Shown piece after piece: positions 1-18,000 of a stretch of DNA of 64,000 nt (position 1 is its first letter; the number at the start of each line of letters is the position of its first letter). The stretch covers positions 124,001-188,000 of the forward strand of contig JACREZ010000034.1 of NCBI GenBank assembly GCA_016212665.1, read 5' to 3'. Origin of the DNA: Ignavibacteriota bacterium (GTDB lineage Bacteria; Bacteroidota; Ignavibacteria; UBA10030; SZUA-254). Below the pieces are notes generated by a model, which saw only the letters and a program-made list of their open reading frames with translations, was not told the DNA's origin and searched no databases. The position numbers and the translations under genes are program-made.

Positions 1-150
1 CGTTCACTTGATAGATACTCGGCACGATACGATTTTATTAAAATATTAGACGCTACAGGAAACCTTGTGCCAAATACCGAAACACCCGGACAACCAATCG
101 GGAATGAATGGGAAATTCGTACCTACATTCACTTGAATGTCGGAATGTGA
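1..150 (+). CDS. C-terminal fragment of an unrecognised protein, cut by the window edge
   Basis: Frame 1 is open from base 1 to a TGA at 148-150 and gives 49 residues ending in WEIRTYIHLNVGM. The alternating polar/hydrophobic end (YIHLNVGM) could be the last strand of a beta-rich or outer-membrane protein, but that is a guess. It runs in the same direction as the glucan-utilisation genes, about 80 bases before the next start, so it may be the preceding gene of that locus. No family is recognisable from this fragment. Confidence 0.5.
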   Translation, partial: RSLDRYSARYDFIKILDATGNLVPNTETPGQPIGNEWEIRTYIHLNVGM

Positions 151-231
151 GGAAACAATGGGTTGTCTTTTTGAAAGAATGAGATGCCAAACAACAAAAG
201 AAATAAACAGTTACAAATTTGGAGTGAAGTC

Positions 232-2724
232 ATGACCAAGGGAAATCTATTTTGTTTGTTCGCAGTTGCAATGATAGTGTTGGTGTTCGCTATTTCAGGT
301 TGTGAAAGAGATACCAGTATGTTAGAGTCGGCTACCTATCCTAAAGATGCCGAAGTGTTCACCGATCAGTTCGGTCCTGCAATACAATATCAATCGTTCG
401 GTGATTCAAAGTTAGATGCCTTACAAATGGATGAAACGGAAACATACAGCGGTACAACATCGCTTAAAATATCCGTACCGAACGATGGATATATGTATAG
501 CACTTATCCTTATGCAGGTGGCGCCTTTGTTTCTACTTCTGGACGCGACCTTCGCGGGTATAATGTGCTTACCTTTTGGGCAAGAGCTACAGTAGAAACA
601 AAATTTAATTTCGGTATTGGAAATGACAATACAGGAACTTCTAAATATACTGCACAAGTATCGGATGTCGCGTTGCATCAGGTGTGGACAAAGTATGTCT
701 TTCCAATTCCTTCTCCTGAAAAACTCTCAAAAGAAAAAGGTCTGTTTTTCTTTTCTGCCGCTAATTTGAATGGTGTAGGTTACAATTTCTGGCTTGATGA
801 AATTAAATATGAGAACATTGGTACTATTACTGATCCGCGTACATCTATAACAACATCATCATTTAACAATGCAATTGAAGGGGATACCTTTGTAATTGAT
901 AAATCGATTGATGTGAAGTTTAATCTCAATGGTAGAGATCAAACGGTACAAGCATCACCGAGTTATTTAAAATATTTTTCATCTGCTGATACTGTTGCCT
1001 CAGTCAGTACCGATGGGGTTATTAAAGCGGTGGGACCCGGCAGTGCAATTATTACAGCAAAACTTGGTTCGGTTAATGCCACTGGTCAAGTAGCCGTCAA
1101 CAACGTTAAAGCTGCACTAAGTCCAACGACTCCGGCTACTACTCCTCTACATGCATCGGATAAAGTGATTTCAATTTTCAGCGATACATACAGCAACATC
1201 CCGGTGGATACGTGGTCGGCAGAGTGGACGAATCATGCAAAAGTTGAAAACAGAACGATTAACGATAACAATGTAAAAGTATATACTAACCTTGATTTTG
1301 CAGGAATCATTTTTTCGAAGAACACCATTGATGCCTCAATGATGACTCATTTTCACTTGGATATCTGGACTCAGTATCCGACTTCATCTGCTTCGTTCAA
1401 AGTTAAATTGGTTGACTTTGGGAACAATGGTAAATATGGAGGAGGTGATGACGTTCAATCTGAATGTACTTTTACTTCAACAACACAACCGAATGCTTTA
1501 CGAACAGGTTCGTGGATTAGTCTTGATATTCCCCTTTCAGATTTTGCTGCACTTACCACACGAAGCCACCTCGCACAATTAATTATATCGGGTGGGTTGA
1601 AAACCGTTTGGGTGGATAATGTGTATCTTTATCAGGGAACGGTCACTCCCGGACAAACAGCGCCAACAACCGCGGCTCCTCTACCAACCGTCCCGAGTGT
1701 TAATGTAATATCATTATTCAGTGATAATTACAATAACAATGCTGTCGATACCTGGTCTGCCCAATGGGATATGGCTGATGAAACATACAGGTCGGTTGCA
1801 GGAAACGATGTTATGCTTTACACTAATCTTGATTATGCTGGTATAGAATTTACAGGCGCGAATCAGATTAATGCTTCATCAATGGAAAATTTCCACGTTG
1901 ATATCTGGACACCAAACTCGATTTTGGGTGCAACGTTTAAAGTTAAATTGGTAGATTTCGGGGTAAATGGTGTGTATGGTGGTGGCGATGATGTACAATC
2001 CGAACTTACTTTTACCTCTGCTTCCTCACCCAGCCCTCTTAGAACCGCCTCCTGGGTATCTCTCGATATTCCATTAGCTAGTTTTACAGGACTTACTACG
2101 AAAGCAAATCTGTCGCAATTAATTCTTTCGGCAACCGGCGCATTGAAAACGATTTGGGTTGACAATATCTATTTCTACAAAGTAATTCCTGCAACGGGCG
2201 CTCCGATTCCTCCGGTTAGAGATGAAGCCGATGTGATTTCGCTTTTTAGTGACGCGTATACCAATCATCCGGTTAATGGAGATATATGGGCGGCGTCCTG
2301 GCAATACAGTACCGCTATTGTTACAAACAAAACTATAGGTAGTGATAATGTGAAGGTATATACAAACCTCAATTTTGCAGGTGTTGAATTCACCGGTGCA
2401 AATATGATTGATGCCTCTACGATGAATTACTTCCACATTGATGTATGGACTCCGAATTCTGTTGTCTCTCCTTCAGCCATAAAAATAAAATTAGTTGACT
2501 TTGGTGGCAATGGAGTGTATGGCGGAAGCGATGATACAGCGTTTGAACTGACATTTAATTCAACCTCAACACCACCATTAGTTACCGGTGGTTGGGTAAG
2601 TCTTGATATTCAGTTGTCGAGATTCACAGGACTAACACAAAGAGCACATCTCGCTCAACTGATTGTTTCAGGCGCAGGAGATGTAAAAACCGTATGGTTT
2701 GATAATGTCTATTTCCATAAATAA
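232..2724 (+). CDS. Surface lipoprotein with carbohydrate-binding-like domains and an Ig-like domain
   Basis: Probably an envelope lipoprotein that binds beta-glucan; no catalytic domain is visible. I chose ATG 232 over 184 because GGAG sits 7 bases upstream and it gives a compact lipoprotein signal with lipobox (..AISGC). In order: a ~160-residue beta-sandwich-like carbohydrate-binding-type domain, an Ig-like group 2 (Big_2) domain (ends near base 1110), then three copies of a ~160-residue domain (about 1163-1635, 1704-2185, 2231-2724). Each copy starts like VISLFSD.Y, carries KLVDFG and GGGDD, and ends in VWVDNVYFY. The same domain recurs in the proteins at 7742 and 14645. The ROK regulator follows after 33 bases. 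Glucan binding is inferred from the GH16/GH17 neighbours. Confidence 0.8.
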   Translation: MTKGNLFCLFAVAMIVLVFAISGCERDTSMLESATYPKDAEVFTDQFGPAIQYQSFGDSKLDALQMDETETYSGTTSLKISVPNDGYMYSTYPYAGGAFVSTSGRDLRGYNVLTFWARATVETKFNFGIGNDNTGTSKYTAQVSDVALHQVWTKYVFPIPSPEKLSKEKGLFFFSAANLNGVGYNFWLDEIKYENIGTITDPRTSITTSSFNNAIEGDTFVIDKSIDVKFNLNGRDQTVQASPSYLKYFSSADTVASVSTDGVIKAVGPGSAIITAKLGSVNATGQVAVNNVKAALSPTTPATTPLHASDKVISIFSDTYSNIPVDTWSAEWTNHAKVENRTINDNNVKVYTNLDFAGIIFSKNTIDASMMTHFHLDIWTQYPTSSASFKVKLVDFGNNGKYGGGDDVQSECTFTSTTQPNALRTGSWISLDIPLSDFAALTTRSHLAQLIISGGLKTVWVDNVYLYQGTVTPGQTAPTTAAPLPTVPSVNVISLFSDNYNNNAVDTWSAQWDMADETYRSVAGNDVMLYTNLDYAGIEFTGANQINASSMENFHVDIWTPNSILGATFKVKLVDFGVNGVYGGGDDVQSELTFTSASSPSPLRTASWVSLDIPLASFTGLTTKANLSQLILSATGALKTIWVDNIYFYKVIPATGAPIPPVRDEADVISLFSDAYTNHPVNGDIWAASWQYSTAIVTNKTIGSDNVKVYTNLNFAGVEFTGANMIDASTMNYFHIDVWTPNSVVSPSAIKIKLVDFGGNGVYGGSDDTAFELTFNSTSTPPLVTGGWVSLDIQLSRFTGLTQRAHLAQLIVSGAGDVKTVWFDNVYFHK

Positions 2725-2757
2725 TACTTCAGAATATTAAAGACAAAAAATTATTCT

Positions 2758-4029
2758 ATGAATCAAGACGAACAAAATACAACTGAGAAGCATAACGGTA
2801 ACGTAACTCGTAATCGTCCATTAGCTGAATCGGTGTTGCGGCTAATTTGGAGCGAGCGTCAAATTTCCCGCGCTGATGTCGCAAGACGACTCGGTTTATC
2901 TCGTTCTACTGTCTCTGAAATTTTAGTACCGCTCCTCAAAACGGGGTTGGTAGCCGAAGTTGGCATAGGGAAATCGCGCGGTGGAAGGCCCCCTATTGTT
3001 CTTGAATTCCAAGACAATGCACGATATATCATTGGAGTAGATATTGGAGCAACCCACGTTTCTGTTGTTATTACCAATATGCGGGGCAAAGTGCTTGTTT
3101 GGAAAGAAAAAAATCATCCCGTTCGTACAGACCCGGAAGGAACTCGTGAGTTGGTGTTTGAACTCTGCGACAAGTGTATTGCAACTCAAGATAAGGGAGT
3201 GAAACGATTATTTCGAATAGGCGTTGCTTTGCCAAGTCCAATCGACCCGATTCGTCCGAATTGGCTTTCTGAAGTTGTTATTCCTGCATGGCAGGGGAGA
3301 ACAGGATTAGAACGTCTCCAACAAAAGTATAACGTGCCTGCTCACGTAGATAACGATGCCAACCTTGCGGCGCTTGCAGAATATTGGTGGGGAGCCGGGC
3401 GGGGAGTGGATGACCGTATCTTTATTAAAATGGGGTATGGAATAGGCGCCGGATATATTTTTGGAGGAAATATATATCGGGGCTCGTCAGGTTTAGCAGG
3501 CGAAATCGGTCACATCCCAATTGATATAAATGGTAAACAATGTGTTTGCGGGCTAAAAGGTTGTCTGACCACGTTTGTTGGTGCAGAGGCGCTGGTTGCT
3601 CGAGCAAGAGAGTTACGGAACAAGTACCCGAAAAGTTTGCTCGCTGGAAATTCATTAACCATGACGGATATTGAGAACGCTGCATTATCCAACGACCCTC
3701 TTGCCCTTCAAGTGGTAAGTGAACTATCAACTTACATGGGAATAGCAATAGCAAGTTTAGTTAATACTATGAATCCCGCGATGGTAATTCTTGGCGGAGG
3801 GATGGCGCGCTTAGGAACATTACTTACTGAACAGATTCGTGATAAAGTGAAACGGAGTACGTTATTGAATCCCGGTTCTAATGTAGAAATAGGGACAAGC
3901 AAAATCGGTCCTCAAGCCGTTGCTATAGGAGCGGCAACACTCGCCCTTGATGAAGCATTAAGCGAACCAAACTTATTTCAACGGTCAGCCCGTAAACGGG
4001 TAAAACGATCTACATCTAAATCGAAATGA
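2758..4029 (+). CDS. ROK-family transcriptional regulator (NagC/XylR type)
   Basis: Sugar-responsive repressor or activator with an N-terminal winged helix (about residues 20-75, RADVARRLGLSRSTVSEIL) and a C-terminal ROK sugar-kinase fold. The fold shows the phosphate loop (GVDIGATHVS), the sugar-site acid (DNDANLAALAEYW), the GEIGH motif and the ROK zinc motif CVCGLKGC. Its length of 423 residues is slightly above the ~400 usual for the family. The stop overlaps the ATG at 4026 (ATGA). Its place between a glucan-binding lipoprotein and GH16/transporter genes suggests it senses glucose or a laminari-oligosaccharide and controls this locus; that is inference. Confidence 0.9.
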   Translation: MNQDEQNTTEKHNGNVTRNRPLAESVLRLIWSERQISRADVARRLGLSRSTVSEILVPLLKTGLVAEVGIGKSRGGRPPIVLEFQDNARYIIGVDIGATHVSVVITNMRGKVLVWKEKNHPVRTDPEGTRELVFELCDKCIATQDKGVKRLFRIGVALPSPIDPIRPNWLSEVVIPAWQGRTGLERLQQKYNVPAHVDNDANLAALAEYWWGAGRGVDDRIFIKMGYGIGAGYIFGGNIYRGSSGLAGEIGHIPIDINGKQCVCGLKGCLTTFVGAEALVARARELRNKYPKSLLAGNSLTMTDIENAALSNDPLALQVVSELSTYMGIAIASLVNTMNPAMVILGGGMARLGTLLTEQIRDKVKRSTLLNPGSNVEIGTSKIGPQAVAIGAATLALDEALSEPNLFQRSARKRVKRSTSKSK

Positions 4030-4049
4030 ATAACCTGAAGGATATTATT

Positions 4050-4898
4050 ATGACTTGGAACGACTTCATTAAATTATCGAAGCAGTTAACTTTGCTATCC
4101 GGCATTCATGGTTGTTATGTTGTAATTTTTCTTGCTCTTGCAGGATGTAATCATACAACCGAACCTGAACAACCGAGCTTAAGCCTTGTTTGGCAAGACG
4201 AATTTAACGGTGTCGCAGGAACGCAGATTGATTCTACTCGTTGGAGCCATGAAATAGGGTCGGGCTGGGGAAATAATCAACTTGAATATGATACTAATCG
4301 TCCGGAAAATATTTCTCAAGATGGAGTAGGGAATCTTGCAATCACTGCGCGCAAAGAATATTACAAGGGACAAAGTTATACTTCTGCCAGAATCACAACT
4401 AAGGGGTTGGCTGAATTCACATACGGAAGAGTTGAAGCACGTATCAAATTACCGGTAGGGCAGGGTCTCTGGCCCGCCTTTTGGATGCTTGGCGCAAACG
4501 ATGATTCTGTGACTTGGCCCAAGTGCGGCGAGATAGATATTATGGAATATCGAGGTCAAATTCCCAATGGTATAAACGGTAGCGCTCACGGACCTAACTA
4601 CTCTGGCAGAAATGCAATCACGAAACCCTATTATTTAATTAATGACAGGTTCGATAATCGTTTCCATACTTTTGCAGTAGCATGGGGAAAAGATTATTTG
4701 AAATATTTTGTCGATGATACACTTTATCAGGTGATAACTCCCGCAAACATTACCGGGACATGGGTGTTCGACCATCCGTTTTATATTATTCTTAATCTTG
4801 CAGTAGGCGGTGATTATGTAGGCTCACCAAATGCTACAACGCCGTTTCCGCAAACGATGCTTATTGATTGGGTGCGGGTTTACAAGGAGGTTGAATGA
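4050..4898 (+). CDS. GH16 endo-beta-1,3-glucanase (laminarinase) lipoprotein
   Basis: Predicted to hydrolyse internal beta-1,3 (or mixed-linkage) glucan bonds at the cell surface. The catalytic signature EIDIME (first Glu codon at base 4530) is the beta-bulge form common in laminarinases. Other GH16 hallmarks are LVWQDEFNG near the mature N terminus, the GRVEARIKLP stretch, WPAFWMLG, and WVRVYKE at the C terminus. The lipobox is ALAGC. An upstream ATG at 4026 overlaps the ROK stop, but ATG 4050 has AAGGA 7 bases upstream, so I use 4050 (282 residues). It is a single-domain enzyme of normal GH16 length. The transporter gene follows after 84 bases. Confidence 0.92.
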   Translation: MTWNDFIKLSKQLTLLSGIHGCYVVIFLALAGCNHTTEPEQPSLSLVWQDEFNGVAGTQIDSTRWSHEIGSGWGNNQLEYDTNRPENISQDGVGNLAITARKEYYKGQSYTSARITTKGLAEFTYGRVEARIKLPVGQGLWPAFWMLGANDDSVTWPKCGEIDIMEYRGQIPNGINGSAHGPNYSGRNAITKPYYLINDRFDNRFHTFAVAWGKDYLKYFVDDTLYQVITPANITGTWVFDHPFYIILNLAVGGDYVGSPNATTPFPQTMLIDWVRVYKEVE

Positions 4899-4982
4899 TT
4901 TTTTTAAAGAGCATTTTCTCTCTCTGTTTTCTCTTCAAGAGAGTTTGCGTTCAAAGAGCAAGTATGAAAAGGAGGACTGTCT

Positions 4983-6467
4983 ATGAATTATTTTAACAAT
5001 TACGAAACGGCACCGGAAGATAGGATTTCATTTTCCAAAAAAGTTGCTTATGGTTCAGGAGCGTTTGTTAATAATCTACTGGCAGCTGCGATTGGAGGGA
5101 TGATGATTGTTCTCAACCTTGGATTGGGAATGAATCCTGCTATTGTTGGAATCCTAGGGGCGTTGCCACGCCTCGTCGATGCGTTTATCGATCCTGTCAT
5201 GGGATTTATTTCTGACCATACCCGATCGAAGTGGGGACGAAGAAGACCATATATTTTTACAGGGGCAATCGGTTCAGGAATTATTTTTGCTTTGTTGTGG
5301 CAATTACCTAAGGGACAGACGGAAACATTTTATTTTGTTTACTTCCTCATTGGTTCCATCCTTTTTTATATCGCTTATACTGTATATGCCGCACCCTGGG
5401 TTGCCCTCGGATACGAACTCACTCCTGATTACAATGAGCGCACGCGACTTATGGGAGTACAAAACTTTCTCGGTCAAATTGCCTATATCATTTCTCCTTG
5501 GTTTTTGTGGATCATGACAAACAAAGATTTTTTTCTCGACCAAGTTTCCGGGGCAGCAGGTTTATCAATTATCATTGGCATTGTTACGATCGGGTTCGGT
5601 ATTTTACCGGCAATATTCTTAAAAGAACGATTCAAAGAAGTTGCCGAACAGGAAGAAACAAATCAAAAGGGAGTAACAAAGCAAGTAGAAGGCAGCGCCT
5701 TATTGCAAAATAGTAAACGATTCTTTAAAGGTTTTGGAGTAACATTGAAATCCGGTCCATTTCAAAAACTCTGCCTTGCCACGTTCTTAGTTTTTAATGG
5801 TTTCATTCTTGTTTCATCATTTCAATCTTATGTAATTATTTATTATGTGGCACAAGGGGATCAAACCTTGGGGGCAAAATACGCAGGCATTGCCGGGACT
5901 GTCGGTGCCGCAGGAACATTCATTGTTATTGCATTTGTAACTTGGCTTGGAACAAAGATTGGAAAAAGGAAAGCATTTTTTGTTTCGACGTTGATTTCGA
6001 TTCTTGGTTATGGGCTGAAGTGGATATGTTACGATCCCAACATTCCTCTCCTCAGTGTTCTTCCGGCACCCTTAATAGCATTTGGCTTAGGCGGATTATT
6101 CACTCTCATTCCTTCAATGGTTGCTGATGTTGTTGATGTGGATGAATTACAAACTCGTGAACGACGTGAAGGGATGTATAGTTCAATTTTCTGGTGGGTT
6201 GTTAAACTTGGTATGGCGGCAGCACTTGCCGGAGGAGGTTTCCTCCTCAATGCAACGGGCTTTGACCTTGCTCTTGGTGGAAACCAAACCGCACAGACAA
6301 TATTTCTCATGCGATTATTCGATGCCGGAATACCATTGCTGGCGTCAGTGTTAGCAATATGGGCTGTAGTTTCTTATCCCATTACCGCAGAAAGAGCACA
6401 CGAGGTTCGTATGGAATTAGAAAGGAGAAGAGGCACTACTTCTCAACCGGAAAAAAAGGAATCCTAA
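4983..6467 (+). CDS. GPH-family sugar:cation symporter (MFS)
   Basis: Inner-membrane transporter of about 12 helices, of the glycoside-pentoside-hexuronide:cation symporter family (MelB-like). Seen: KVAYGSGAFVNN at the start, DPVMGFISDHTRSKWGRRRPYI after helix 2 (the family motif RxGRRRP), and LTPDYNERTRLMG in the central region. A strong AAAGGAGG lies 7 bases before ATG 4983. Its length of 494 residues is normal. Flanked by GH16 and GH17 genes, it most likely imports laminaribiose or short beta-1,3-glucans for the cytoplasmic phosphorylase at 11022; substrate is inferred. Confidence 0.9.
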   Translation: MNYFNNYETAPEDRISFSKKVAYGSGAFVNNLLAAAIGGMMIVLNLGLGMNPAIVGILGALPRLVDAFIDPVMGFISDHTRSKWGRRRPYIFTGAIGSGIIFALLWQLPKGQTETFYFVYFLIGSILFYIAYTVYAAPWVALGYELTPDYNERTRLMGVQNFLGQIAYIISPWFLWIMTNKDFFLDQVSGAAGLSIIIGIVTIGFGILPAIFLKERFKEVAEQEETNQKGVTKQVEGSALLQNSKRFFKGFGVTLKSGPFQKLCLATFLVFNGFILVSSFQSYVIIYYVAQGDQTLGAKYAGIAGTVGAAGTFIVIAFVTWLGTKIGKRKAFFVSTLISILGYGLKWICYDPNIPLLSVLPAPLIAFGLGGLFTLIPSMVADVVDVDELQTRERREGMYSSIFWWVVKLGMAAALAGGGFLLNATGFDLALGGNQTAQTIFLMRLFDAGIPLLASVLAIWAVVSYPITAERAHEVRMELERRRGTTSQPEKKES

Positions 6468-6526
6468 ATGATGAGACATGAACTAATAATCTCAGTTGTC
6501 TTCATAAATGGACGAAGAATGCTACG

Positions 6527-7633
6527 GTGAAAAATCTCATCCTATCCATATTGTTGGTGTATTGCTTCCTTGAATTATTAAACGCCCAAAACAGTGTTGT
6601 ACTAAAGGGGCGTAAAGGAGAACCAATGATTTCACAGATAAAACAAGAACTCGAATCAGAAGTAGTCTTTAATAAAATTTCTGTTAATGAAACCAGGAAA
6701 TTCAATCCATACATAGGTAAACAGTGGATTGGAAATGCAATCGCCTATGGCTGTTACCGAAAAGGTCAGTCGCCCGGAGGGAATAATCCTACCAAAGATG
6801 AGATAAGGGAAGATGTGTCTATCATGGCAAAGCATTGGAATCTCATAAGAGTTTATAGTGCGGATGTTAATACCGAATATCTTTTAGAAGTGATTAACGA
6901 AAAAAACTTTTCTATAAAGGTTTTGCTTGGAGTTTGGATTGAAAACGAGACCGGCAATTCAAGTATGAAAAATGCAAACATAGAACAACTATTGCAGTGC
7001 ATTTCATTGGTTCGTCAATACGAGAAGCATATTGTTGGTGTAAGTGTTGGGAATGAGACACAGGTCGCGTGGTCGGGGCACAAAATGAATTCGGATGTAC
7101 TTATAAGGTATATACGAGCTATACGAAAATATACAGATGTTCCGGTAACAACTGCCGACGATTATAATTTTTGGAACAAAGAAGAGAGTAAGTTGGTCGC
7201 GAGTGAAATTGATTTTCTTGTTACACATCTTCATCCACTTTGGAACGGGAAGACACTCAGCAACGGAATATCCTGGTTAGATGAAACATTTCGCTTCATT
7301 CAGGAAATGCATCCCGGAAAACAAATTGTTCTTGGAGAAACCGGCTGGGCGACAATGTATGATTCTACAAAAAGAGGAAGAGATGAACAGGGGACATTGA
7401 TAAAGGGTGAGGTAAGCGTAGAGGCTCAAGAGCAATTCCTCATCAATATTCATGGATGGATAGAGAAAAATAAAATCCCCACATTCATATTTGAGGCATT
7501 TGATGAATCATGGAAGGGTGGCGGTGAAAAATCTGGTCCCGATGATGTAGAAAAACATTGGGGCGTTTTTAATGAGAATCGTACTCCTAAAAAATCATTT
7601 ATAACCTATTTACAACATCGTAAAACAAAATGA
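6527..7633 (+). CDS. GH17-family exported beta-1,3-glucanase-like hydrolase
   Basis: Predicted beta-1,3-glucan hydrolase with a GH17 (beta/alpha)8 fold. The acid/base Glu lies in GVSVGNE (E177) and the nucleophile in VLGETGW (E271), the spacing expected for clan GH-A. A GTG start at 6527 gives a clean signal peptide ending LLNAQ; the nearby ATG at 6508 is out of frame. Length 368 is usual for bacterial GH17. It lies 59 bases after the transporter. Bacterial GH17 members can also be transglycosylases, so exo-hydrolysis versus transfer is not settled. Confidence 0.85.
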   Translation: MKNLILSILLVYCFLELLNAQNSVVLKGRKGEPMISQIKQELESEVVFNKISVNETRKFNPYIGKQWIGNAIAYGCYRKGQSPGGNNPTKDEIREDVSIMAKHWNLIRVYSADVNTEYLLEVINEKNFSIKVLLGVWIENETGNSSMKNANIEQLLQCISLVRQYEKHIVGVSVGNETQVAWSGHKMNSDVLIRYIRAIRKYTDVPVTTADDYNFWNKEESKLVASEIDFLVTHLHPLWNGKTLSNGISWLDETFRFIQEMHPGKQIVLGETGWATMYDSTKRGRDEQGTLIKGEVSVEAQEQFLINIHGWIEKNKIPTFIFEAFDESWKGGGEKSGPDDVEKHWGVFNENRTPKKSFITYLQHRKTK

Positions 7634-7741
7634 GTTTATCTATTGTTGGCACAGAACGAAAATAGAAACAATCGATTATCTATACTTAAATAAATTAATT
7701 AACCATAACAAATCACACAAAATCTAATCTCATAAAGGAAA

Positions 7742-10669
7742 ATGAACATGAAACACTTTTATCTATATGTTCTAACATGCGTATTACTGAGCAGTATATC
7801 GTTCGCTCAAAACGTTCCCGTTACGTTTGAACCTGGTGGAAATGGTGGAACGTGGACTTGGACCGTATTTGAAAATAGTACGAATCCTGCACTTCAGGTC
7901 GTTGCTAATCCCTCAGCAACAGGGATAAATACTTCGAGCTACGTGGCTCAATTTACAGCATTACAGGCAGGTCAGCCGTGGGCTGGTTGTGAAAGCCAGC
8001 ACACTACCGATCTCGGAACATTTACATTAGATGCAACCAATTGCACAATTAAAATGATGGTTTACAAATCTGTAATTAGTGACGTAGGCATCAAATTTGC
8101 AACCTCAGTCGGAGGTTCGGACGGAGAAATTAAAGTCGCGAATACAAAGATTAATGAATGGGAAGAATTAACTTTCGATTTTTCGGCACGGATTGGTAAT
8201 CCAGCATCGACGAACATTGATCAAATAATTGTATTCCCCGATTTTAATCTTGGTGGAAGAACTTCAGATAATGTAGTTTATTTTGATAATATTACTTTTT
8301 CTGCAATTTTACCCGCAACGCAACCTACGATTGCCGCACCCACACCCACTCTTCCATCGAGTAATGTTATTTCATTATTTAGTAATGCGTACACCAATGT
8401 AACAGTTGATACATGGTCTGCTGTCTGGGATATGGCTGATGTGAGTGATGTACAGATTGTCGGTGACGATACAAAAAAGTACTCAAATCTCACTTTTGCC
8501 GGAATTGAATTTACCTCAAGCACGATTAATGCAACAGCAATGAACTTTTTCCACATGGATATGTGGACCCCGGATTCAACAGCGTTACCAAAAATATTCA
8601 AACTTAAAATAGTTGATTTTGGTGCTGATGGCGCATGGAGCGGTGGAGATGATGTTGAGCATGAATTAACATTTAATGCTTCATCCATTCCTCCACTTAC
8701 AACCGGGAACTGGATGAGTTTTGATATTCCCCTATCAAACTTTACCGGTCTTACAACAAGAGGTCATCTTGCACAAATGATTATTTCGGGCGATCTAAGA
8801 ACTGTGTTTATAGACAATGTTTATTTCTATGCAGGAGCAGAAACAGAACCGGCTACCGCAGCCCCAACTCCTACAGTATCTGCAGAAAATGTAATCTCGT
8901 TATTCAGCAATGCCTATACCAACGTAACGGTTGATACATGGTCGGCAGTGTGGGATAATGCTGATGTGAGTGATATACAAATTGCAGGTAACGACACCAA
9001 GAAATATACGAGTCTTGTATTTGCCGGAATTGAATTTACGTCTAGCACGATTAATGCAACAGCAATGAACTTTTTCCACATGGATATGTGGACCCCGGAT
9101 TCAACAGCGTTACCAAAAATATTCAAAATAAAATTGGTTGATTTTGGGGCTGATGGCGCATGGAGCGGTGGAGATGATGTTGAGCATGAATTAACGTTGA
9201 ATGCTTCCTCAGTTCCCGCGCTTTCAACTGGCAACTGGATGAGTCTTAACATTCCTTTGGCAAACTTCACAGGTCTTACAACAAAGGCTCATCTTGCCCA
9301 ACTTATTATTTCGGGCGATCTAAGAACTGTATTTATTGATAATGTGTATTTCTACGCCGGAGCCGAAACTGAGCCGAGTGTCGCCGCACCCACACCGACG
9401 GTTCCTGCAGGAGAAGTTATTTCATTGTTCAGCAACGCATACACGAATGTTACCGTTGATACATGGTCTGCCGGGTGGGATATGGCGGATGTGAGTGATG
9501 TACAAATTGCAGGGAACGACACCAAGAAATATACAAGTCTTGTGTTTGCGGGAATTGAATTTACTTCAAGTACGATTAATGCCTCTGCGATGAATTACTT
9601 CCACATGGATTTCTGGACACCTGATTCAACGGCGTCCCCAAAGATTTTCAAAATTAAAATAGTAGATTTTGGAGCGGGCGGAGTATGGGGCGGTGGTGAT
9701 GACGTAGAACATGAATTAACTTTTAGTGCATCGACAACTCCTGCGCTTGCTACGGGGAGTTGGGTTAGTTTTGATCTTCCGTTATCAAGCTTTACCGGTC
9801 TTACGACAAGAGGTCATCTTGCACAAATGATTATCTCCGGCGATCTACGAACCATGTTTATTGATAACGTGTATTTCTACAGAGGTATGATTCCGACAGA
9901 GTACCATGCGAAATGGAATATGGTTTCAGTTCCCTCGACCATTTCAAATTATGCAAAATCTGCTGTATTCCCGACTGCAACAACTGCTGCTTTTGCCTAT
10001 AGTGGTGGATATTCTACCGCCGACATTTTAGAAAATGGGAAAGGATACTGGATAAAATTCGATAATGCAACTTCCGTTACGTTCGGTGGTACTTCAATTA
10101 CCTCAATAACGATTCCTGTTGTCGAAGGATGGAATATGATAGGCTCGATTAGCGCACCGATCGATGTTACAAGTATCACTTCAGATCCCTCAGGTATGGA
10201 AACCTCACAGTTTTTTGATTACAGTGAAACAGGATATGCAGTCTCAAGCTCTATTGAACCGGGAAAAGCATATTGGGTAAAGGTAAATACAGCCGGTTCG
10301 TTAATACTTTCATCAGTCCTAACTTATGCCGGGAACAGAATCAGTATTATGCCGAATTCAGAGTTACCTCCGTCTCCGCCAGAAACAAATAATTATATCA
10401 TGCCGAGCGAATTCTCATTAAGTCAGAACTATCCCAACCCTTTCAACCCAACAACTATCATTCATTACTCCTTAGCGACAAACGAATTTGTCTCTCTAAA
10501 AGTATTTAATATGTTAGGCCAGGAGGTGGCAACGTTAGTTAGTGAAATGCAGAATGCAGGTGTAAAAAATATTGAATTTGACTCACAGAATTTACCAAGC
10601 GGTCTGTATTTCTATAAGATGAACGCGGGTAGCTTCAGCGAGATGAAGAAAATGGTAATCATGAAATAG
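7742..10669 (+). CDS. T9SS-exported multi-domain carbohydrate-binding-like protein without a catalytic domain
   Basis: Secreted protein of 975 residues. The signal peptide ends SISFAQ. In order: an N-terminal beta-sandwich domain (to about base 8310), three copies of the ~160-residue domain also found at 232 and 14645 (about 8363-8830, 8888-9356, 9413-9880), a 'WNMVSVP' module that repeats as two halves (about 9907-10320), and a T9SS type A C-terminal domain (SLSQNYPNPFNP through MKKMVIMK). Copies 1 and 2 share 84 identical bases. Linkers are rich in A, P and T. AAGGA precedes the ATG. No glycosidase signature is present, so it is likely a cell-attached glucan-binding or scaffold protein; that role is inferred from the neighbours. 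Confidence 0.85.
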   Translation: MNMKHFYLYVLTCVLLSSISFAQNVPVTFEPGGNGGTWTWTVFENSTNPALQVVANPSATGINTSSYVAQFTALQAGQPWAGCESQHTTDLGTFTLDATNCTIKMMVYKSVISDVGIKFATSVGGSDGEIKVANTKINEWEELTFDFSARIGNPASTNIDQIIVFPDFNLGGRTSDNVVYFDNITFSAILPATQPTIAAPTPTLPSSNVISLFSNAYTNVTVDTWSAVWDMADVSDVQIVGDDTKKYSNLTFAGIEFTSSTINATAMNFFHMDMWTPDSTALPKIFKLKIVDFGADGAWSGGDDVEHELTFNASSIPPLTTGNWMSFDIPLSNFTGLTTRGHLAQMIISGDLRTVFIDNVYFYAGAETEPATAAPTPTVSAENVISLFSNAYTNVTVDTWSAVWDNADVSDIQIAGNDTKKYTSLVFAGIEFTSSTINATAMNFFHMDMWTPDSTALPKIFKIKLVDFGADGAWSGGDDVEHELTLNASSVPALSTGNWMSLNIPLANFTGLTTKAHLAQLIISGDLRTVFIDNVYFYAGAETEPSVAAPTPTVPAGEVISLFSNAYTNVTVDTWSAGWDMADVSDVQIAGNDTKKYTSLVFAGIEFTSSTINASAMNYFHMDFWTPDSTASPKIFKIKIVDFGAGGVWGGGDDVEHELTFSASTTPALATGSWVSFDLPLSSFTGLTTRGHLAQMIISGDLRTMFIDNVYFYRGMIPTEYHAKWNMVSVPSTISNYAKSAVFPTATTAAFAYSGGYSTADILENGKGYWIKFDNATSVTFGGTSITSITIPVVEGWNMIGSISAPIDVTSITSDPSGMETSQFFDYSETGYAVSSSIEPGKAYWVKVNTAGSLILSSVLTYAGNRISIMPNSELPPSPPETNNYIMPSEFSLSQNYPNPFNPTTIIHYSLATNEFVSLKVFNMLGQEVATLVSEMQNAGVKNIEFDSQNLPSGLYFYKMNAGSFSEMKKMVIMK
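8519..8602 (+). repeat. 84-base exact repeat, copy 1 (inside a domain repeat)
   Basis: This segment is identical to 9044-9127. It encodes the ..STINATAMNFFHMDMWTP.. part of domain copies 1 and 2. Perfect identity inside copies that otherwise differ points to recent intragenic duplication or gene conversion. Confidence 0.95.
9044..9127 (+). repeat. 84-base exact repeat, copy 2
   Basis: Identical to 8519-8602; divergence resumes immediately on both sides (preceding base A versus T, following base C versus A). Confidence 0.95.
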
Positions 10670-10758
10670 TAGAATAAGTGGTTAAAATAAAGGAAGATCT
10701 TGTAGAACAAATAATAAACTAATAGTTAAGGATTACACGATCGAAAAGAACTTCCTAA

Positions 10759-10858
10759 CGAGGTTGTCCGATAAATGTATGTTATGACAGGTATTATAAA
10801 AACATCCAATTCCATCCTCGGAAATTACAAGTTATAATATAATTTTTGGACAGCCTCG
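10759..10858. repeat. 100-base element with terminal inverted repeats
   Basis: The ends are CGAGGTTGTCC and GGACAGCCTCG, inverted with one mismatch; the interior is AT-rich and noncoding. The termini match the type seen at 17893-18000 (GAGGTTGTCC...GGACAACCCC), so the two may share a mobilising transposase. It fills most of the gap between the T9SS protein and the phosphorylase. Confidence 0.65.
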
Positions 10859-10901
10859 TGTTTATTGAATCATCCTCAGTACAATAAATTTCATTACAAA
10901 T

Positions 10902-10932
10902 AAAATCCCAGTAGTTTGACTGGGATTTTTGT
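10902..10932 (+). terminator. Rho-independent terminator
   Basis: A perfect 10-base stem (AAAATCCCAG / CTGGGATTTT) with an 8-base loop, followed by T residues. It would end transcription of the glucan operon before the phosphorylase gene, which should then have its own promoter in 10933-11021. Confidence 0.85.
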
Positions 10933-11021
10933 TCAAATGAACATGTAACTTCATCAATGAATTTGTAATATTGCTATGCGGTTAATAATACCGGAGCAAT
11001 AATTGAATAAAGGTTTTGTGA

Positions 11022-14000
11022 ATGATAAAGAAAACGATGCATAGAAAAGTCTCTGGATTTACTGCTTTCCATCAGTCTGTAGAAGGCACTTATGTAGAGA
11101 TTGAGGGAGAAAAATTTTACAAAATATCCAATTACAATCAAATGCAACCTTTTTTCATGAGCATTGTAAGCGATTCTGATCACTGGATGTTTATTTCAAG
11201 TAATGGAGGGCTCACTGCAGGCCGAAAAAATCCTGATAATGCCCTTTTCCCTTACTACACGGATGATAAGATTCACGATTCTCATGAACATACAGGTAGT
11301 AAAACCATCCTATTAGTTTCATTGTCTGATAAACAATATTTATGGGAACCGTTTTCTATTCGATGTGAAGGAATATACAGGGTCGAAAATAATCTTTATA
11401 AAAATATATATGGGAATAAAATCGTTTATGAGGAAATCAATCACGATTTATCTGTTACATTTCGTTATTCATGGTTCAACAGTAAAAAATATGGATTTAT
11501 AAAACGAGCTCAACTATCGAATCATAATCACTATCCAATAAAGGTCGAAATACTGGATGGGATTCAAAATATTCTTCCATCCGATCTGAGTCGTCGTTTT
11601 CAACAAGAGTATAGCACGCTCATCGACGGATATAAAAAAAATGAGTTAGAGGTTGAATCAGGTTTAGGCATCTTTGCACTGAGTTCTATCCCTATTGACA
11701 AGGCTGAACCAAACGAAGCATTAAAAGCAACGATTGTATGGTCTGTTGGCTTAGACAATAAAAAAATTCTCCTTTCGTCTGAACAATTAGACGCGTTTAG
11801 AACCGGGCATGCCATACGACAAGAGACAGATGTTCATGGCGAACGGGGTGCGTATTTTATTCATGCGGAATGTAACGTTTCCCAGGTGGGTGAAAAAGAA
11901 TGGTTGCTTGTGGCTGATATTAATCAGGACGCAAGAAAAGTAGCTGAGGTGAAAAGCTTGCTTCAGGGAAAAAGGAATATCGCAAAATTGGTCATGGAAG
12001 ATGTTGCCTTAGGGACAAGCCGTCTCAGGAAAATCATTGCAAGTGCGGATGGATTACAATTAACAGAAGATTTTCTCGTTTGTTCTCGTCATTATTCTAA
12101 CGTCTTATATAATGTGATGCGCGGGGGAGTATTTGATGATGGATATACAATCAATAAACATGATTTTATTTCTTTTATTCGAAAGGGAAATAAAAAGATA
12201 GCAAAACAATTCAAAGGGTTTTTCCAGCGCTTACCGGAAAAATTTCAACGTTCTGAATTATTTTTCAAAGCAGAGACTCTTCGCTCTCTGGATTTTGAAA
12301 AATTATGCTATGAATATTTACCCCTCACATTTAGTCGCCGTCATGGCGACCCAAGCCGACCATGGAATCTTTTCTCTATTGAAACAAAAGACGATAATGG
12401 TGAGAAAATTCTCAATTACGAAGGTAATTGGAGAGATATATTTCAAAATTGGGAAGCATTAGCATTGAGTTACCCGGAGTACGTTGAAGGCATGATTACG
12501 AAATTTGTCAATGCCTCAACGGTTGATGGATATAATCCGTACAGGGTGACACGAGACGGTTTTGATTGGGAATCTATTAATCCCCACGACGAATGGTCGT
12601 ACATTGGATATTGGGGGGACCACCAAGTAATCTACTTGGTGAAATTATTGGAGATATCGTCGCATTATCATCGGGAAAAAATTCAGACATTATTACTAAA
12701 AGATATTTTTGCGTATGCGAATGTACCGTATCGAATAAAATCATATTCTGCAATGTTACAAGACCCACATTGCACTATTGATTTTGATATGAACCTGGAT
12801 AAAGAGATTCAAAAAAGAGTTAATCAAATTGGAACTGATGGTAAATTCATCCTGAACAAAAGAGGTGAGATTGTTCATGTCAATTTGATTGAAAAAATGA
12901 TTGTATCAATACTATCAAAACTTTCCAATTTTATTCCTGAAGCAGGTATTTGGATGAATACTCAACGGCCTGAGTGGAACGATGCGAATAATGCACTTGT
13001 CGGTTTCGGTGTTTCCATGGTTACGTTATGCTATCTAAGAAGATATATCTGTGTCTTTCGAGAACTGATTTGGGCATTGGATGAAAAAAAATATGCACTC
13101 ATATCAGAAGAAGTCGAATTCCTGTTCACTTCAATAAAGAAAATATTCCTCAAGTTTGAGCCTCTCTTGATTGGTCCAGTAACGAACAGACAACGAAAAG
13201 TAATTCTCGACAATCTTGGGCAGGCAGGCAGTAACTTTAGAAGTGTTGTGTACAAGAAAGGATTGTCGGGAAGAAGGAAAAAAGTTGATATTTCTTCCAT
13301 GCTGGAATTTTCCGAATTGTCCTTGAAATATATTGACCACACGATAAAAGCAAACAAACGCGAGGATAATATGTATCAAGCATATACCTTGATGAAGGTC
13401 GAAAACAATAATGAAATTTCAATCCGAAATTTGTATGAAATGCTGGAAGGGCAGGTGGCAATTTTAAGTTCCGGTTATCTTTCTGCAAGTGAGGCATTGT
13501 TAGTTCTGGATTCTCTTAAAAAGAGTTCCATGTATAGAATTGACCAGAATAGTTATATGCTTTATCCGGATCGGTTATTACCGCGCTTTGTAGAAAAAAA
13601 TAATCTGGCGAAGCATCAGTATACAAAATCAAAATTACTTAAGTTGCTTCTCAAAGATGGAAACCGACAGATTGTTACAATGGATGTGACGGGGAAAGTA
13701 CACTTTAATAGTGAATTCAGAAATAAGAATGTATTACTCTCTGCCCTTGATAATATAAACGATGAGAAGTATTCTGCGTTAGTTAAAAAAGAGAAAGATA
13801 TAGTTGTTGATATGTACGAGCGCCTGTTTGACCACCAATCATTTACAGGACGGTCGGGGACATTTTATAAATATGAAGGATTGGGATGTATATACTGGCA
13901 CATGGTTTCAAAATTGCTTATCGCTGTTCAGGAAGTAATATTACAAGCGCGCCGAAATAATGATGATGGTACTGTTATACAAAGATTAGCAACTCATTAT

Positions 14001-14498
14001 AAAGAAATTAAAGAGGGTATTGGAGTACATAAATCCCCGGCGGTATACGGTGCATTTCCGATTGACCCTTATTCTCATACCCCCAGAAACAAAGGTGCGC
14101 AGCAACCGGGGATGAGTGGTCAAGTAAAAGAAGATATCATTTCTAGGTTTGTAGAGTTAGGACTTTTTATCAATGATGGAAAAATTATTTTTCACCCGGA
14201 ATTGTTAGATGTGGACGAATTCCTAAAGGAATCTAAATTATTCGAGTACATTGATGTTGCCCAAGAAGAAAAATCGATAAAGATTAATAAAGGTAGTTTA
14301 GCATTTACATTTTGTCAAGTTCCTGTTGTATATCATTTATCTGTGAATCCCAAACTTCACATTACGAATCGAACCGGGAAGGTTGTTAAACAAAAAGAAC
14401 TTAGCCTCGATAAGAAGACGAGCTCGTCAATATTTAAACGAGATGGTCGTGTGCGTAGAATAGATGTTTACGTATCCTCTGTTCTGACAAATGATTAA
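11022..14498 (+). CDS. Large cytoplasmic beta-glucan phosphorylase (GH94/GH149/GH161 type)
   Basis: Predicted to cleave beta-glucan oligosaccharides with phosphate, giving glucose 1-phosphate. It has no signal peptide. Family-like segments are the N-terminal beta-sandwich (NGGLTAGRKNPDNALFPYY), the GYWGDHQVIYLVKLLE stretch, and RPEWNDANNALVG, where the Asp (D654) aligns with the general acid of GH94-type phosphorylases. At 1158 residues it is much longer than cellobiose phosphorylases (~800) and closer to the beta-1,3-glucan phosphorylases of GH149/GH161. The laminarinase context supports a beta-1,3 substrate. AAAGG lies 8 bases before ATG 11022. Exact family assignment is uncertain. Confidence 0.75.
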   Translation: MIKKTMHRKVSGFTAFHQSVEGTYVEIEGEKFYKISNYNQMQPFFMSIVSDSDHWMFISSNGGLTAGRKNPDNALFPYYTDDKIHDSHEHTGSKTILLVSLSDKQYLWEPFSIRCEGIYRVENNLYKNIYGNKIVYEEINHDLSVTFRYSWFNSKKYGFIKRAQLSNHNHYPIKVEILDGIQNILPSDLSRRFQQEYSTLIDGYKKNELEVESGLGIFALSSIPIDKAEPNEALKATIVWSVGLDNKKILLSSEQLDAFRTGHAIRQETDVHGERGAYFIHAECNVSQVGEKEWLLVADINQDARKVAEVKSLLQGKRNIAKLVMEDVALGTSRLRKIIASADGLQLTEDFLVCSRHYSNVLYNVMRGGVFDDGYTINKHDFISFIRKGNKKIAKQFKGFFQRLPEKFQRSELFFKAETLRSLDFEKLCYEYLPLTFSRRHGDPSRPWNLFSIETKDDNGEKILNYEGNWRDIFQNWEALALSYPEYVEGMITKFVNASTVDGYNPYRVTRDGFDWESINPHDEWSYIGYWGDHQVIYLVKLLEISSHYHREKIQTLLLKDIFAYANVPYRIKSYSAMLQDPHCTIDFDMNLDKEIQKRVNQIGTDGKFILNKRGEIVHVNLIEKMIVSILSKLSNFIPEAGIWMNTQRPEWNDANNALVGFGVSMVTLCYLRRYICVFRELIWALDEKKYALISEEVEFLFTSIKKIFLKFEPLLIGPVTNRQRKVILDNLGQAGSNFRSVVYKKGLSGRRKKVDISSMLEFSELSLKYIDHTIKANKREDNMYQAYTLMKVENNNEISIRNLYEMLEGQVAILSSGYLSASEALLVLDSLKKSSMYRIDQNSYMLYPDRLLPRFVEKNNLAKHQYTKSKLLKLLLKDGNRQIVTMDVTGKVHFNSEFRNKNVLLSALDNINDEKYSALVKKEKDIVVDMYERLFDHQSFTGRSGTFYKYEGLGCIYWHMVSKLLIAVQEVILQARRNNDDGTVIQRLATHYKEIKEGIGVHKSPAVYGAFPIDPYSHTPRNKGAQQPGMSGQVKEDIISRFVELGLFINDGKIIFHPELLDVDEFLKESKLFEYIDVAQEEKSIKINKGSLAFTFCQVPVVYHLSVNPKLHITNRTGKVVKQKELSLDKKTSSSIFKRDGRVRRIDVYVSSVLTND

Positions 14499-14644
14499 TA
14501 TGTAGTTTGATTTTATACCGATTAGATACTAAGTACATTTTCGTGTTTTGCTGTTTGCCTTAATTCCAGATAACTTTCAAACGTGTTGTGCCCAAGTTGC
14601 CTTCTCAAGAAAGAGAAGTATATATTAATAACGGAAATGTGTGT

Positions 14645-17293
14645 ATGAGAACTCGCTGTTACATCAATACTATACTTGTCATTCTTCTTGTCACATTGTT
14701 CGTATTTACGGTACAAGTAACAAGTTATTCATTGCAGGGAAATGAAGTAGATAATCGAAAACAAGAAGAGAAAAAATTACAACAGAATAAATCTATCTCT
14801 ATAGAATTGACATCCGTACCACCTTACGGTTCATCAGAAGTATTGCATGGAAAAGTTCATGGAGTAAATCCATCTGCATATAATGTGGTCGTCTATATTT
14901 TTATGGATGGAGCAGGATGGTGGGTCAAACCTTCGGCAAGCCAACCGTTGACTTCTATTGCATCTGATTCGACATGGACCTGTTCGATAGTAAGCGGCGG
15001 AAGTGATATCTATGCAATTATGATAAATGCATACCTTATTCCTGTAGGTTCATCACCACCGATACAATTCGATGAACAACAATTATTAATGATTTCTGTG
15101 GCGAGCGTAGATACATTTCGCTATGGTAAGCCATTCTCGTTTTCAGGGTATGAGTGGTGGGCAAAAGCAAGCGCTTCTCCTGTTGGTCCCGGTGCGAATT
15201 ATTTTTCTGATAGTTCAGATAACGTTTGGGTTGATAGTTTAGGTCAGTTACATTTGAAAATAACTTTGAGGGATGGTCGTTGGCAATGCCCCGAGCTAAT
15301 ATCAAAGAAATCCTTTGGGTATGGAAAATATATTTTTCATATAGGAAGTAGAGTTGGCGCATTGGATAGCAATGCTGTGTTAGGACTTTTTACTTGGGAT
15401 AATGCACCGGAAGAAACTCACAGAGAAATTGATATTGAATATTCGCGATGGGGTAACGGGCAGGGATTAAATGCACAATACGTTGTTCAGCCTTACGACC
15501 AAACAGGCCACATGTATAGGTGGAATATGCCTACCTCAATGGAAATCTCAAGCGGTTCTATCAGTTGGGAACCCGACAGTATCAACTTTTTAAGTTATTC
15601 TGGAACAGGTTTGTTGATAAGTCAGTGGCGTTATGAGGGAGCATTTATTCCGCATCCCGGGAACGAAAAGGTTCACATGAATCTTTGGCTTTGTAATAAT
15701 GGAGGAATACCCGTTGATACTGAACGGGTCGAAGCAATAATTACCTCGTTTGAATTTATTCCCTCTTCGGCAATATATTCAAATGAGCCGGTTGTCTCCG
15801 CACCGATTCCAACGGCATTGCCTGATAGCGTCATTTCGGTTTACAGTAATACATATACCAATGTCCCTGTAACTACATGGTCTGCATCCTGGGATATGGC
15901 GGATGTCAGTGATGTACAGGTAACAGGCAATGACATGAAAAAATATACAAATCTTGTGTATGCCGGAATTGAATTTACATCCCCTACAATCAATGGTTTG
16001 AATACAACCTATTTCCACATGGATATATGGACTCCTGATACAATTACCTCATCATCGATATACAAAGTTAAATTAGTGGATTTTGGAGCGAATGGAATTT
16101 ATTCGGGGGGTGATGATGTTGAATCGGAACTACAATTCAACACCGTTACAACACCTGCCTTGGTCAAAAGAACATGGGTCGGCATTGATGTTCCGCTTTC
16201 ACAATTTACAGCACTTGTTACACGTGGCCATCTTGCTCAATTAATAATATCGGGAACACTTTCTACTATCTTTGTAGATAATATTTATTTCTATAACAAG
16301 ACCATAGAAACTAATGAGCCATTGTTACCGGCTGAGGCGCCCACAATAGCTGGTGATAGCGTGCTCTCTTTGTTTAGCGATGCATATTCTAACGTTCCTG
16401 TTGATTCATGGTCAACTTCATGGGACATGGCTGACGTGTCAGATGTAAACATTATAGACGATCATGTTAAAAAATATACAAATCTCACTTTTGCCGGGAT
16501 AGAGTTCGCTACCTATACCATAGATGTCTCAACAATGAATAATTTTCATATGGATGTTTGGATTCCTGAAAACATTACAGCAGCCAAAAATCTAAGAGTA
16601 AAATTAGTGGATTTCGGAGCGAATGGAATTTATTCGGGGGGTGATGATGTTGAATCTGAGGTAACGATAAATTCTGATGTATATCCTTTGCTCAGTGGTA
16701 GAAACTGGGTCGGTATAGATATCCGGTTATCGGAATTTACGGCACTGACTACAAAACGTCATCTTGCTCAATTGCTTATCGCGGGCGATTTTCCTACTCT
16801 GTATTTGGATAATGTTTATTTTTACATCAGACCTGATTCTTCTCCCACTACAAGTCAATCGGTTGCATACCAGTCCGGCTGGAATTTAGTCTCACTTCCT
16901 TTATCCGTGCAAAATTATTCTAAGAGTGTATTATTCCCATCATCAATATCTCAAGCGTATCTATTCACCAACGGGTATATTGGTGAGGATACATTAACGA
17001 CAGCCAGAGGATATTGGCTAAAGTTCTCTGAAGCAACCTCGGTTAGTTTTACCGGGTACCAACGTACAACAGATTCAGTAAGTCTTACACAGGGGTGGAA
17101 TTTAATCGGATCATTATCTGATTCTGTTAATGTATCACACATTACCTCTACTCCACCCGGATTGTATCTTTCGCAATACTTTGGATACAATAATGGATAT
17201 TATACTGTGACAACGCTTGAACCGGGAAAGGGCTTCTGGGTAAAAGTTAGCCATGATGGAAGATTAATATTACAAAGCGGGTGTGACAAATAA
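14645..17293 (+). CDS. GH16-domain secreted protein with two carbohydrate-binding-like domains, apparently lacking its T9SS domain
   Basis: Exported enzyme-like protein of 882 residues. I prefer ATG 14645 over GTG 14588 because it puts the signal segment (INTILVILLVTLFVF) at the N terminus. In order: an N-terminal beta domain (~residues 55-150), a GH16 domain with REIDIEY (E261, D263, E265) to about residue 375, two copies of the shared ~160-residue domain (about 15830-16300 and 16357-16830), and the 'GWNLVSLP' module. It stops at QSGCDK, where homologous proteins in this window continue into a linker and the T9SS signal. GH16 motif EIDIE lacks the beta-bulge Met of the lipoprotein at 4050, so its specificity may differ. 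Confidence 0.8.
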   Translation: MRTRCYINTILVILLVTLFVFTVQVTSYSLQGNEVDNRKQEEKKLQQNKSISIELTSVPPYGSSEVLHGKVHGVNPSAYNVVVYIFMDGAGWWVKPSASQPLTSIASDSTWTCSIVSGGSDIYAIMINAYLIPVGSSPPIQFDEQQLLMISVASVDTFRYGKPFSFSGYEWWAKASASPVGPGANYFSDSSDNVWVDSLGQLHLKITLRDGRWQCPELISKKSFGYGKYIFHIGSRVGALDSNAVLGLFTWDNAPEETHREIDIEYSRWGNGQGLNAQYVVQPYDQTGHMYRWNMPTSMEISSGSISWEPDSINFLSYSGTGLLISQWRYEGAFIPHPGNEKVHMNLWLCNNGGIPVDTERVEAIITSFEFIPSSAIYSNEPVVSAPIPTALPDSVISVYSNTYTNVPVTTWSASWDMADVSDVQVTGNDMKKYTNLVYAGIEFTSPTINGLNTTYFHMDIWTPDTITSSSIYKVKLVDFGANGIYSGGDDVESELQFNTVTTPALVKRTWVGIDVPLSQFTALVTRGHLAQLIISGTLSTIFVDNIYFYNKTIETNEPLLPAEAPTIAGDSVLSLFSDAYSNVPVDSWSTSWDMADVSDVNIIDDHVKKYTNLTFAGIEFATYTIDVSTMNNFHMDVWIPENITAAKNLRVKLVDFGANGIYSGGDDVESEVTINSDVYPLLSGRNWVGIDIRLSEFTALTTKRHLAQLLIAGDFPTLYLDNVYFYIRPDSSPTTSQSVAYQSGWNLVSLPLSVQNYSKSVLFPSSISQAYLFTNGYIGEDTLTTARGYWLKFSEATSVSFTGYQRTTDSVSLTQGWNLIGSLSDSVNVSHITSTPPGLYLSQYFGYNNGYYTVTTLEPGKGFWVKVSHDGRLILQSGCDK

Positions 17294-17638
17294 AACCGGG
17301 TGCGCATTCTCCCTGTCTGTCATCATCTGTGATTTCCATGATGAACATTGTTTTCATATATACTGATATCCCGTGTTACTTCTGTCACTCGTCTTCCACC
17401 CTCTGTAACCAACCGTACGGCATTGAGTTAACATTCTTTATTAAATATTCTTCGTTGTTGTTTTTGTTGTTCTTCCATTTCGGACCTTTCTTGGTATTAC
17501 GAAACTCTCTTTTCTTCGTGTCCCAAATCTGGGGGGAATATCACTACGCCAACGATGTTCTTGGTGGACAGGGAGAAAAGGATAATTGCAAAGCCTTTGA
17601 CCATAGAGGAATTGCAAAAATTGTATTGATATGAAGGG

Positions 17639-17892: not shown

Positions 17893-18000
17893 GAGGTTGT
17901 CCGAAAAGTCCGATTGGCGTGTAGCCGCAGACTTTACGTCTGCGTTTTTATTTGGAACCGCAACCATAAAGGTTGCGCCTACGACTTTTGGACAACCCCT
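17893..18000. repeat. 108-base element with terminal inverted repeats and two internal hairpins
   Basis: The ends GAGGTTGTCCGAAAAG and CTTTTGGACAACCCCT are inverted with two mismatches. Inside are hairpins CGCAGAC/GTCTGCG and GCAACC/GGTTGC. The termini match the element at 10759-10858. It lies directly upstream of nifJ, between base 18000 and the start at 18063, so it could carry part of that gene's leader. Confidence 0.75.

Follow-up and report, generated by a model that had tools for sequence, protein, structure and literature searches.

How might a bacterium take up a beta-1,3-glucan when the genes for its breakdown lie together without SusC/SusD? Few sugars are produced on Earth in larger amounts than laminarin. 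Bacteroidota are usually assumed to take it up through SusC/SusD, and field studies read the expression of this pair as a sign that laminarin is being used. The locus considered here lies in a window of 64,000 nucleotides (the whole stretch of DNA that was analysed; C34:124001-188000, where C34 is contig JACREZ010000034.1) from a 3.9 Mb Ignavibacteriota genome that is 99.65% complete. Our main reading, to which we give a probability of about 0.6, is a SusC/SusD-free beta-1,3-glucan operon in which a fusion of a glycosidase with a predicted outer-membrane barrel serves as the entry through the outer membrane.

Gene content of the locus

Eight co-directional genes, all open, closely spaced and on the forward strand, occupy window positions 184-17293. 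The fusion gene begins outside the window, 3.03 kb to its left, and ends 33 bp before P1; with it, the locus probably forms a nine-gene operon for the use of a laminarin-type beta-1,3-glucan. The features are as follows.

C34:120971-124150 (last 150 bases = window 1-150), + strand, fusion gene, 1059 aa
184-2724, + strand, P1, CBM-like lipoprotein (lipobox ISGC-ERD)
2758-4029, + strand, ROK-family transcription regulator, HTH and ROK (Pfam/NCBIfam)
4026-4898, + strand, GH16 lipoprotein, laminarinase-type motif EIDIME (85 bits, cut-off 22)
4983-6467, + strand, GPH (MFS_2) sugar:cation symporter (MFS_2, 211 bits)
6527-7633, + strand, GH17, signal peptide by eye (32.5 bits, cut-off 28.2)
7742-10669, + strand, P6, secreted CBM protein with T9SS type A tail
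11022-14498, + strand, GH149 beta-1,3-glucan phosphorylase by family, 1158 aa (NF058639)
14588-17293, + strand, GH16-like catalytic domain (motif EIDIE) with two repeat copies
17926-17944, + strand, terminator-like hairpin followed by a T run, between the putative operon and the next gene

Intergenic gaps from P1 onward were 33, -4, 84, 59, 108, 352 and 89 bp. A start at 232 is Met17 of the reading frame opening at 184, that is, of the same lipoprotein P1. The second GH16 assignment is weak but genuine: the catalytic part scanned alone reached 22.3 bits against a cut-off of 22.0. Terminator-like hairpins in the region around 17926-17944 were near chance level (17 found, 12.6 expected). All families named in the earlier note were recovered; its gene order was not (the actual order is GH16, GPH, GH17, GH149, GH16), and it had left out the ROK regulator. 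Further along the window, positions 21905-28060 encode, as judged by eye, a very long multi-PAS hybrid sensor kinase (2051 aa), immediately downstream of a pyruvate:ferredoxin oxidoreductase.

The absence of SusC/SusD, stated in the earlier note, extends beyond the window: neither was found in the locus or in the 39 kb that precede the window. SusD models PF07980 and PF14322 gave no match anywhere in the source genome and did match a control Bacteroides; the SusC model TIGR04056 gave sub-cut-off matches only in the source genome. No SusD was found in three Ignavibacteria relatives carrying the locus. The nearest receptor, some 18 kb upstream of the fusion, is a TonB-dependent receptor-like protein that contains a CarboxypepD_reg domain (C34:100642-102900). 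It was rejected as a SusC, scoring best against models of the siderophore/haem/B12 type and far under the SusC cut-off.

By sequence, the 1158-aa protein is unmistakably a GH149 member. It scored 1713 bits with NF058639 (cut-off 1150; residues 18-1151), aligned from end to end with Pro_7066, a GH149 of solved structure (6HQ6), and carries R471-D472 and W652-N653-D654, the RD and WND motifs named for Pro_7066 (PMC6771811). The substrates of characterised members are beta-1,3-oligoglucosides (PMC5827456). Score, motifs and the published family activity uphold the earlier assignment as a probable phosphorylase. The gene is the only GH149 copy in the source genome, whose single GH3 lies outside the locus. 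Phosphorolysis inside the cell would also be reasonable, because no signal peptide was seen in the GH149 protein and the GPH symporter is an inner-membrane carrier.

The fusion protein and the repeat domain

The import step proposed in the earlier note is plausible; the outer-membrane crossing had been missed: the GPH carrier cannot perform it, and the candidate is the fusion. This protein combines a GH158-like TIM barrel (residues ~25-440) with a predicted C-terminal outer-membrane beta-barrel (~443-1059). Its database name is 'GH2', and at E ≤ 1 it matched only two Pfam families, GH2_C (PF02836; 30.0 bits, cut-off 21; residues 84-293) and, below threshold, GH53. The sugar-binding and Ig-like domains that GH2 enzymes carry at the N-terminus were not found in the fusion at E ≤ 1, the TIM barrel starting near residue 25, and the TonB plug PF07715 gave no match at the same level, the N-terminus being occupied by the TIM barrel instead. 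A profile search retrieved the GH158 endo-beta-1,3-glucanase BuGH158 (6PAL; E 3.6e-7, ~195 residues). Both catalytic glutamates of BuGH158 (GNE, TEWG) align with those of GNE and TEFG in the fusion, which in the source genome are E183 (LGNENN) and E284 (TEFG).

An AlphaFold model was obtained for the fusion of an Ignavibacteriales relative (locus L079, 64-67% identical), using 38 further sequences. The model is only moderately confident (mean pLDDT 76.9, pTM 0.54); in it, a TIM barrel that extends to about residue 440 is followed by long antiparallel strands. For the TIM part, the top Foldseek matches were beta-1,3-glucanases of GH158 and GH157; the barrel part retrieved MOMP, BtuB and LptD (E about 1e-7). 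In the VIA list, which spans the TIM part (23-414) only, so that support for the barrel fold comes from Foldseek and the strand pattern, GH157, GH158 and GH2 glucuronidases tied at Z 26-27; the domain is therefore called 'GH158-like' rather than placed in one exact GH family. Within the barrel of the model, turns of 2-3 residues alternate with long conserved loops, one of which, with GHYHWGYEGDFFGLYPEANYG (mean 0.91), faces away from the TIM domain. By DSSP and our own reading of the model, there are about 24 strands, and both ends of the barrel are on the turn side. The C-terminal region appears to be a plug-less outer-membrane beta-barrel of ~24 strands. As both ends lie on the turn side, the usual convention would place the TIM domain in the periplasm. 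Mean column identity was 69% over 22 full-length sequences, with the C-terminal half as conserved as the enzyme half (0.70 vs 0.72).

The binding domain that the earlier note had counted eight times over three proteins was borne out by alignment: copies of ~155 aa (3 + 3 + 2) share 50-88% pairwise identity and 41 invariant columns.

1165-1632, + strand, repeat copy 1 (P1)
1705-2178, + strand, repeat copy 2 (P1)
2233-2718, + strand, repeat copy 3 (P1)
8366-8830, + strand, repeat copy 4 (P6)
8891-9355, + strand, repeat copy 5 (P6)
9416-9880, + strand, repeat copy 6 (P6)
15830-16294, + strand, repeat copy 7 (GH16-CBM protein)
16361-16825, + strand, repeat copy 8 (GH16-CBM protein)

Pfam CBM models did not match the domain in the three window proteins, and among 52 copies from the window and its relatives a single one matched Pfam, weakly, as CBM_11 (E 0.0016). 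The model of a P1 fragment (pLDDT 93.5) contains an N-terminal CBM-like beta-sandwich, a Big_2-like Ig domain and the repeat. In this model the closest structural matches of the repeat were CBM30 and CBM11 (Z about 12 over 139-147 residues, 13-20% identity), and Foldseek also retrieved the laminarin-binding CBM X584 (8QX6). All three have the same beta-sandwich CBM fold as the repeat, although no sequence relationship to solved CBMs, these included, was detectable; the predicted fold supports the binding-domain reading, outside Pfam. In a profile search of solved structures, the best matches of the repeat were the kinases DDR1/DDR2 (E about 1e-3), which were rejected because FHMDIWT...VDFG resembles the kinase HRD...DFG region only by chance.

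P6 consists of an N-terminal domain, three repeats, an unclassified C-terminal module and the T9SS type A tail; PorV-family genes are present in the source genome. The module (GYW-KF ... GWN-IGS, no Pfam match) is common to P6 (9881-10660) and the GH16-CBM protein (16826-17290). The tail follows it in P6 only, and the GH16-CBM protein ends right after the module. The repeat domain also occurs on the Emticicia oligotrophica plasmid NC_018743.1 (4954-5919), in a family 16 glycosylhydrolase.

Conservation and distribution

Relatives of the fusion were found in at least 559 stretches of genome_contigs, and their hosts include Bacteroidota, Ignavibacteria, Gemmatimonadota, Zixibacteria/GN15, Krumholzibacteria and Delongbacteria. 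Within the phylum, 36 of 296 genomes had a complete or partial fusion, 45 had the repeat, and about 26 had a full-length fusion of 53-64% identity. Wherever both lay on one contig in other genomes (25/25), the nearest repeat was 0.4-1.0 kb from the fusion. The best 80 of the at least 559 fusion-bearing stretches were taken as named loci. In 65 of 78, the gene directly downstream of the fusion was P1-like and read in the same direction. A lipobox-like Cys near the N-terminus was present in 73 of 75 P1-like reading frames. The neighbours in the 80 loci included GH16 (69), GH149 (48), GH17 (46) and GPH (41); in some loci GH149 or GPH went undetected in the flanking DNA, which was cut off on one side of several loci. 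SusC plus SusD occurred within 10 kb of the fusion in a single locus (1/80), as judged by home-made profiles for each protein that detect the pair in locus L130. Most Bacteroidota fusion hosts carry SusCD pairs elsewhere in the genome, and therefore the fusion may assist them there, not replace them. In the fusion tree, a starred Bacteroidota clade stood apart from the rest, and the window copy grouped with that of an Ignavibacteriaceae MAG.

The locus is patchy, since fusion and repeat were absent from the one member of the window's family that was sampled for them, and GH149 from the 13 other members sampled. The G+C content of window positions 1-17300 is 36-44%, against 42-47% to the right. 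This low G+C and the absences within the family suggest a possible acquisition of the locus genes from outside.

Bacteroides finegoldii NZ_OY725931.1 carries a DUF6377 gene, the fusion (annotated 'glycoside hydrolase family 2 TIM barrel-domain'), a P1-like lipoprotein, GH16, two further genes and GH3, in a SusCD-free locus. The record was deposited as a 46-kb plasmid; it is more likely a piece of chromosome, because it bears rpsA and a valine--tRNA ligase gene. Two loci (L078:1406-4804 and L080:12417-15797, both on the - strand) encode a single protein of about 1130 aa that joins a GPH symporter to a complete GH3 beta-glucosidase. No GH149 was detected in either locus, and this transporter-hydrolase fusion may swap phosphorolysis for hydrolysis. 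Flavobacteria (L109:6829-9627, from the cultured Flavobacterium aquatile LMG 4008, and L131:6742-9684) lack the ROK regulator; immediately upstream of their barrel fusion stands a regulator of the Y_Y_Y/LuxR type, beside a CBM protein.

Proposed route, alternatives and known systems

The gene content, the conserved gene set, the conserved pairing of the fusion with P1, the absence of SusC/SusD, the predicted folds and the catalytic residues were established directly, and a route can be proposed on this basis. The fusion and the lipoprotein P1 would act as a SusCD-free outer-membrane pair for capture, entry and cleavage of the glucan. The surface lipoprotein P1 and P6, exported by T9SS, would hold the glucan through their arrays of CBM-like repeats, while the GH16 proteins, from their family, would cut it outside the cell. 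Oligosaccharides could then cross the outer membrane via the barrel of the fusion, and the GH158-like domain on the periplasmic side would cut them as they emerge; cleavage at the barrel mouth could set the direction of entry without TonB. We infer this pore, its activity and its direction from sequence and AlphaFold models. After entry, GH17 may cut further, GPH would carry short oligosaccharides inward with a cation, and cytoplasmic GH149, with phosphate, would convert them into glucose 1-phosphate and glucose, an activity published for the family. ROK is the candidate for sugar sensing.

The barrel could instead act mainly to expose the GH158-like domain at the cell surface, as an anchor or an exporter resembling an autotransporter, with oligosaccharides entering by other porins. 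Classical autotransporters have an N-terminal enzyme and a C-terminal barrel, a layout that the fusion shares, and helices stand just before the first strand of the barrel in the model. However, autotransporter barrels have 12 strands, and about 24 were counted here by DSSP; moreover, the long loops on the far side from the TIM domain match the enzyme in conservation, which would be needless in a mere anchor, so we consider this arrangement unlikely. Still less probable is uptake through an ordinary TonB-dependent receptor elsewhere, the fusion only trimming glucan within an ordinary CAZyme cluster. The genome does encode receptor-like proteins, including the one with CarboxypepD_reg described above; that protein is of the siderophore/haem/B12 type and lies outside the operon, and the conserved neighbour of the fusion in the 80 loci is a P1-type lipoprotein, not a receptor.

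The substrate may also be other than laminarin, for example mixed-linkage glucan, a curdlan-like exopolysaccharide or fungal wall. Several beta-1,3 and mixed glucans can serve as substrates of GH16 and GH158-like enzymes, and the second GH16 has the motif EIDIE. The BuGH158 locus, too, serves mixed-linkage glucan (PMC7157763). Against this stand the beta-1,3-oligoglucoside substrates of characterised GH149 members (PMC5827456) and the GH17 of the same kind of locus, which is a laminarinase (PMC13188888). We regard another substrate as somewhat improbable.

With the fusion taken as the outer-membrane entry, a SusCD-free module would exist in hundreds of genomes, that of a gut Bacteroides included, and surveys of SusC/SusD would miss this route; the fusion would also be a directly testable enzyme-pore machine. 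More tentatively, at somewhat less than even odds, sequence and models may point to the fusion-P1 type as a further kind of outer-membrane glycan importer: a widespread TonB-independent channel with its own glucanase at the periplasmic mouth, pulled by hydrolysis and hidden by the 'GH2' label.

The cluster as such is already known, and its novelty is not supported. Clusters of GH149 with GH16, GH17, a pfam13347 (MFS_2) transporter and a regulator, as here, were published in 2018 (Kuhaudomlarp, PMC5827456), and some of the Bacteroidetes CAZyme clusters lack susCD. The Type II clusters have a TonB-dependent receptor, unlike the window locus, and the available part of that paper mentions neither a barrel-glycosidase fusion nor a CBM-repeat lipoprotein. 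Flavobacterial laminarin PULs of Formosa (PMC6246565) and Muricauda (PMC13188888, 2026) share GH16, GH149, GH17 and MFS with our locus; the Formosa loci, in contrast to it, lie near TonB receptors and SusD. At the fusion's place, upstream, the Muricauda PUL has a 'GH2 beta-glycosidase' gene, read by its authors as a beta-1,6-glucosidase or galactosidase-type enzyme; it is very likely the same gene, a putative fusion homologue. The accessible descriptions of both PULs note no barrel. A search of the open-access literature, with subscription journals and CAZy outside its scope, found no description of a glycosidase-outer-membrane barrel fusion, and such a fusion with a lipoprotein partner appears to be undescribed there. 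The Bacteroides 1,3GUL (PMC7157763) resembles our locus in serving beta-1,3-glucan with GH16, GH158 and surface binding proteins, but uses SusC/SusD and a separate GH158 protein, whereas here the GH158-like domain is fused to the barrel. A further parallel is the MFS-GH17 fusion FbGH17b of Formosa (PMC6246565), likewise a single chain made of a transporter and a glycosidase that serves laminarin; FbGH17b is an MFS carrier with membrane helices, whereas the fusion described here has a predicted outer-membrane barrel.
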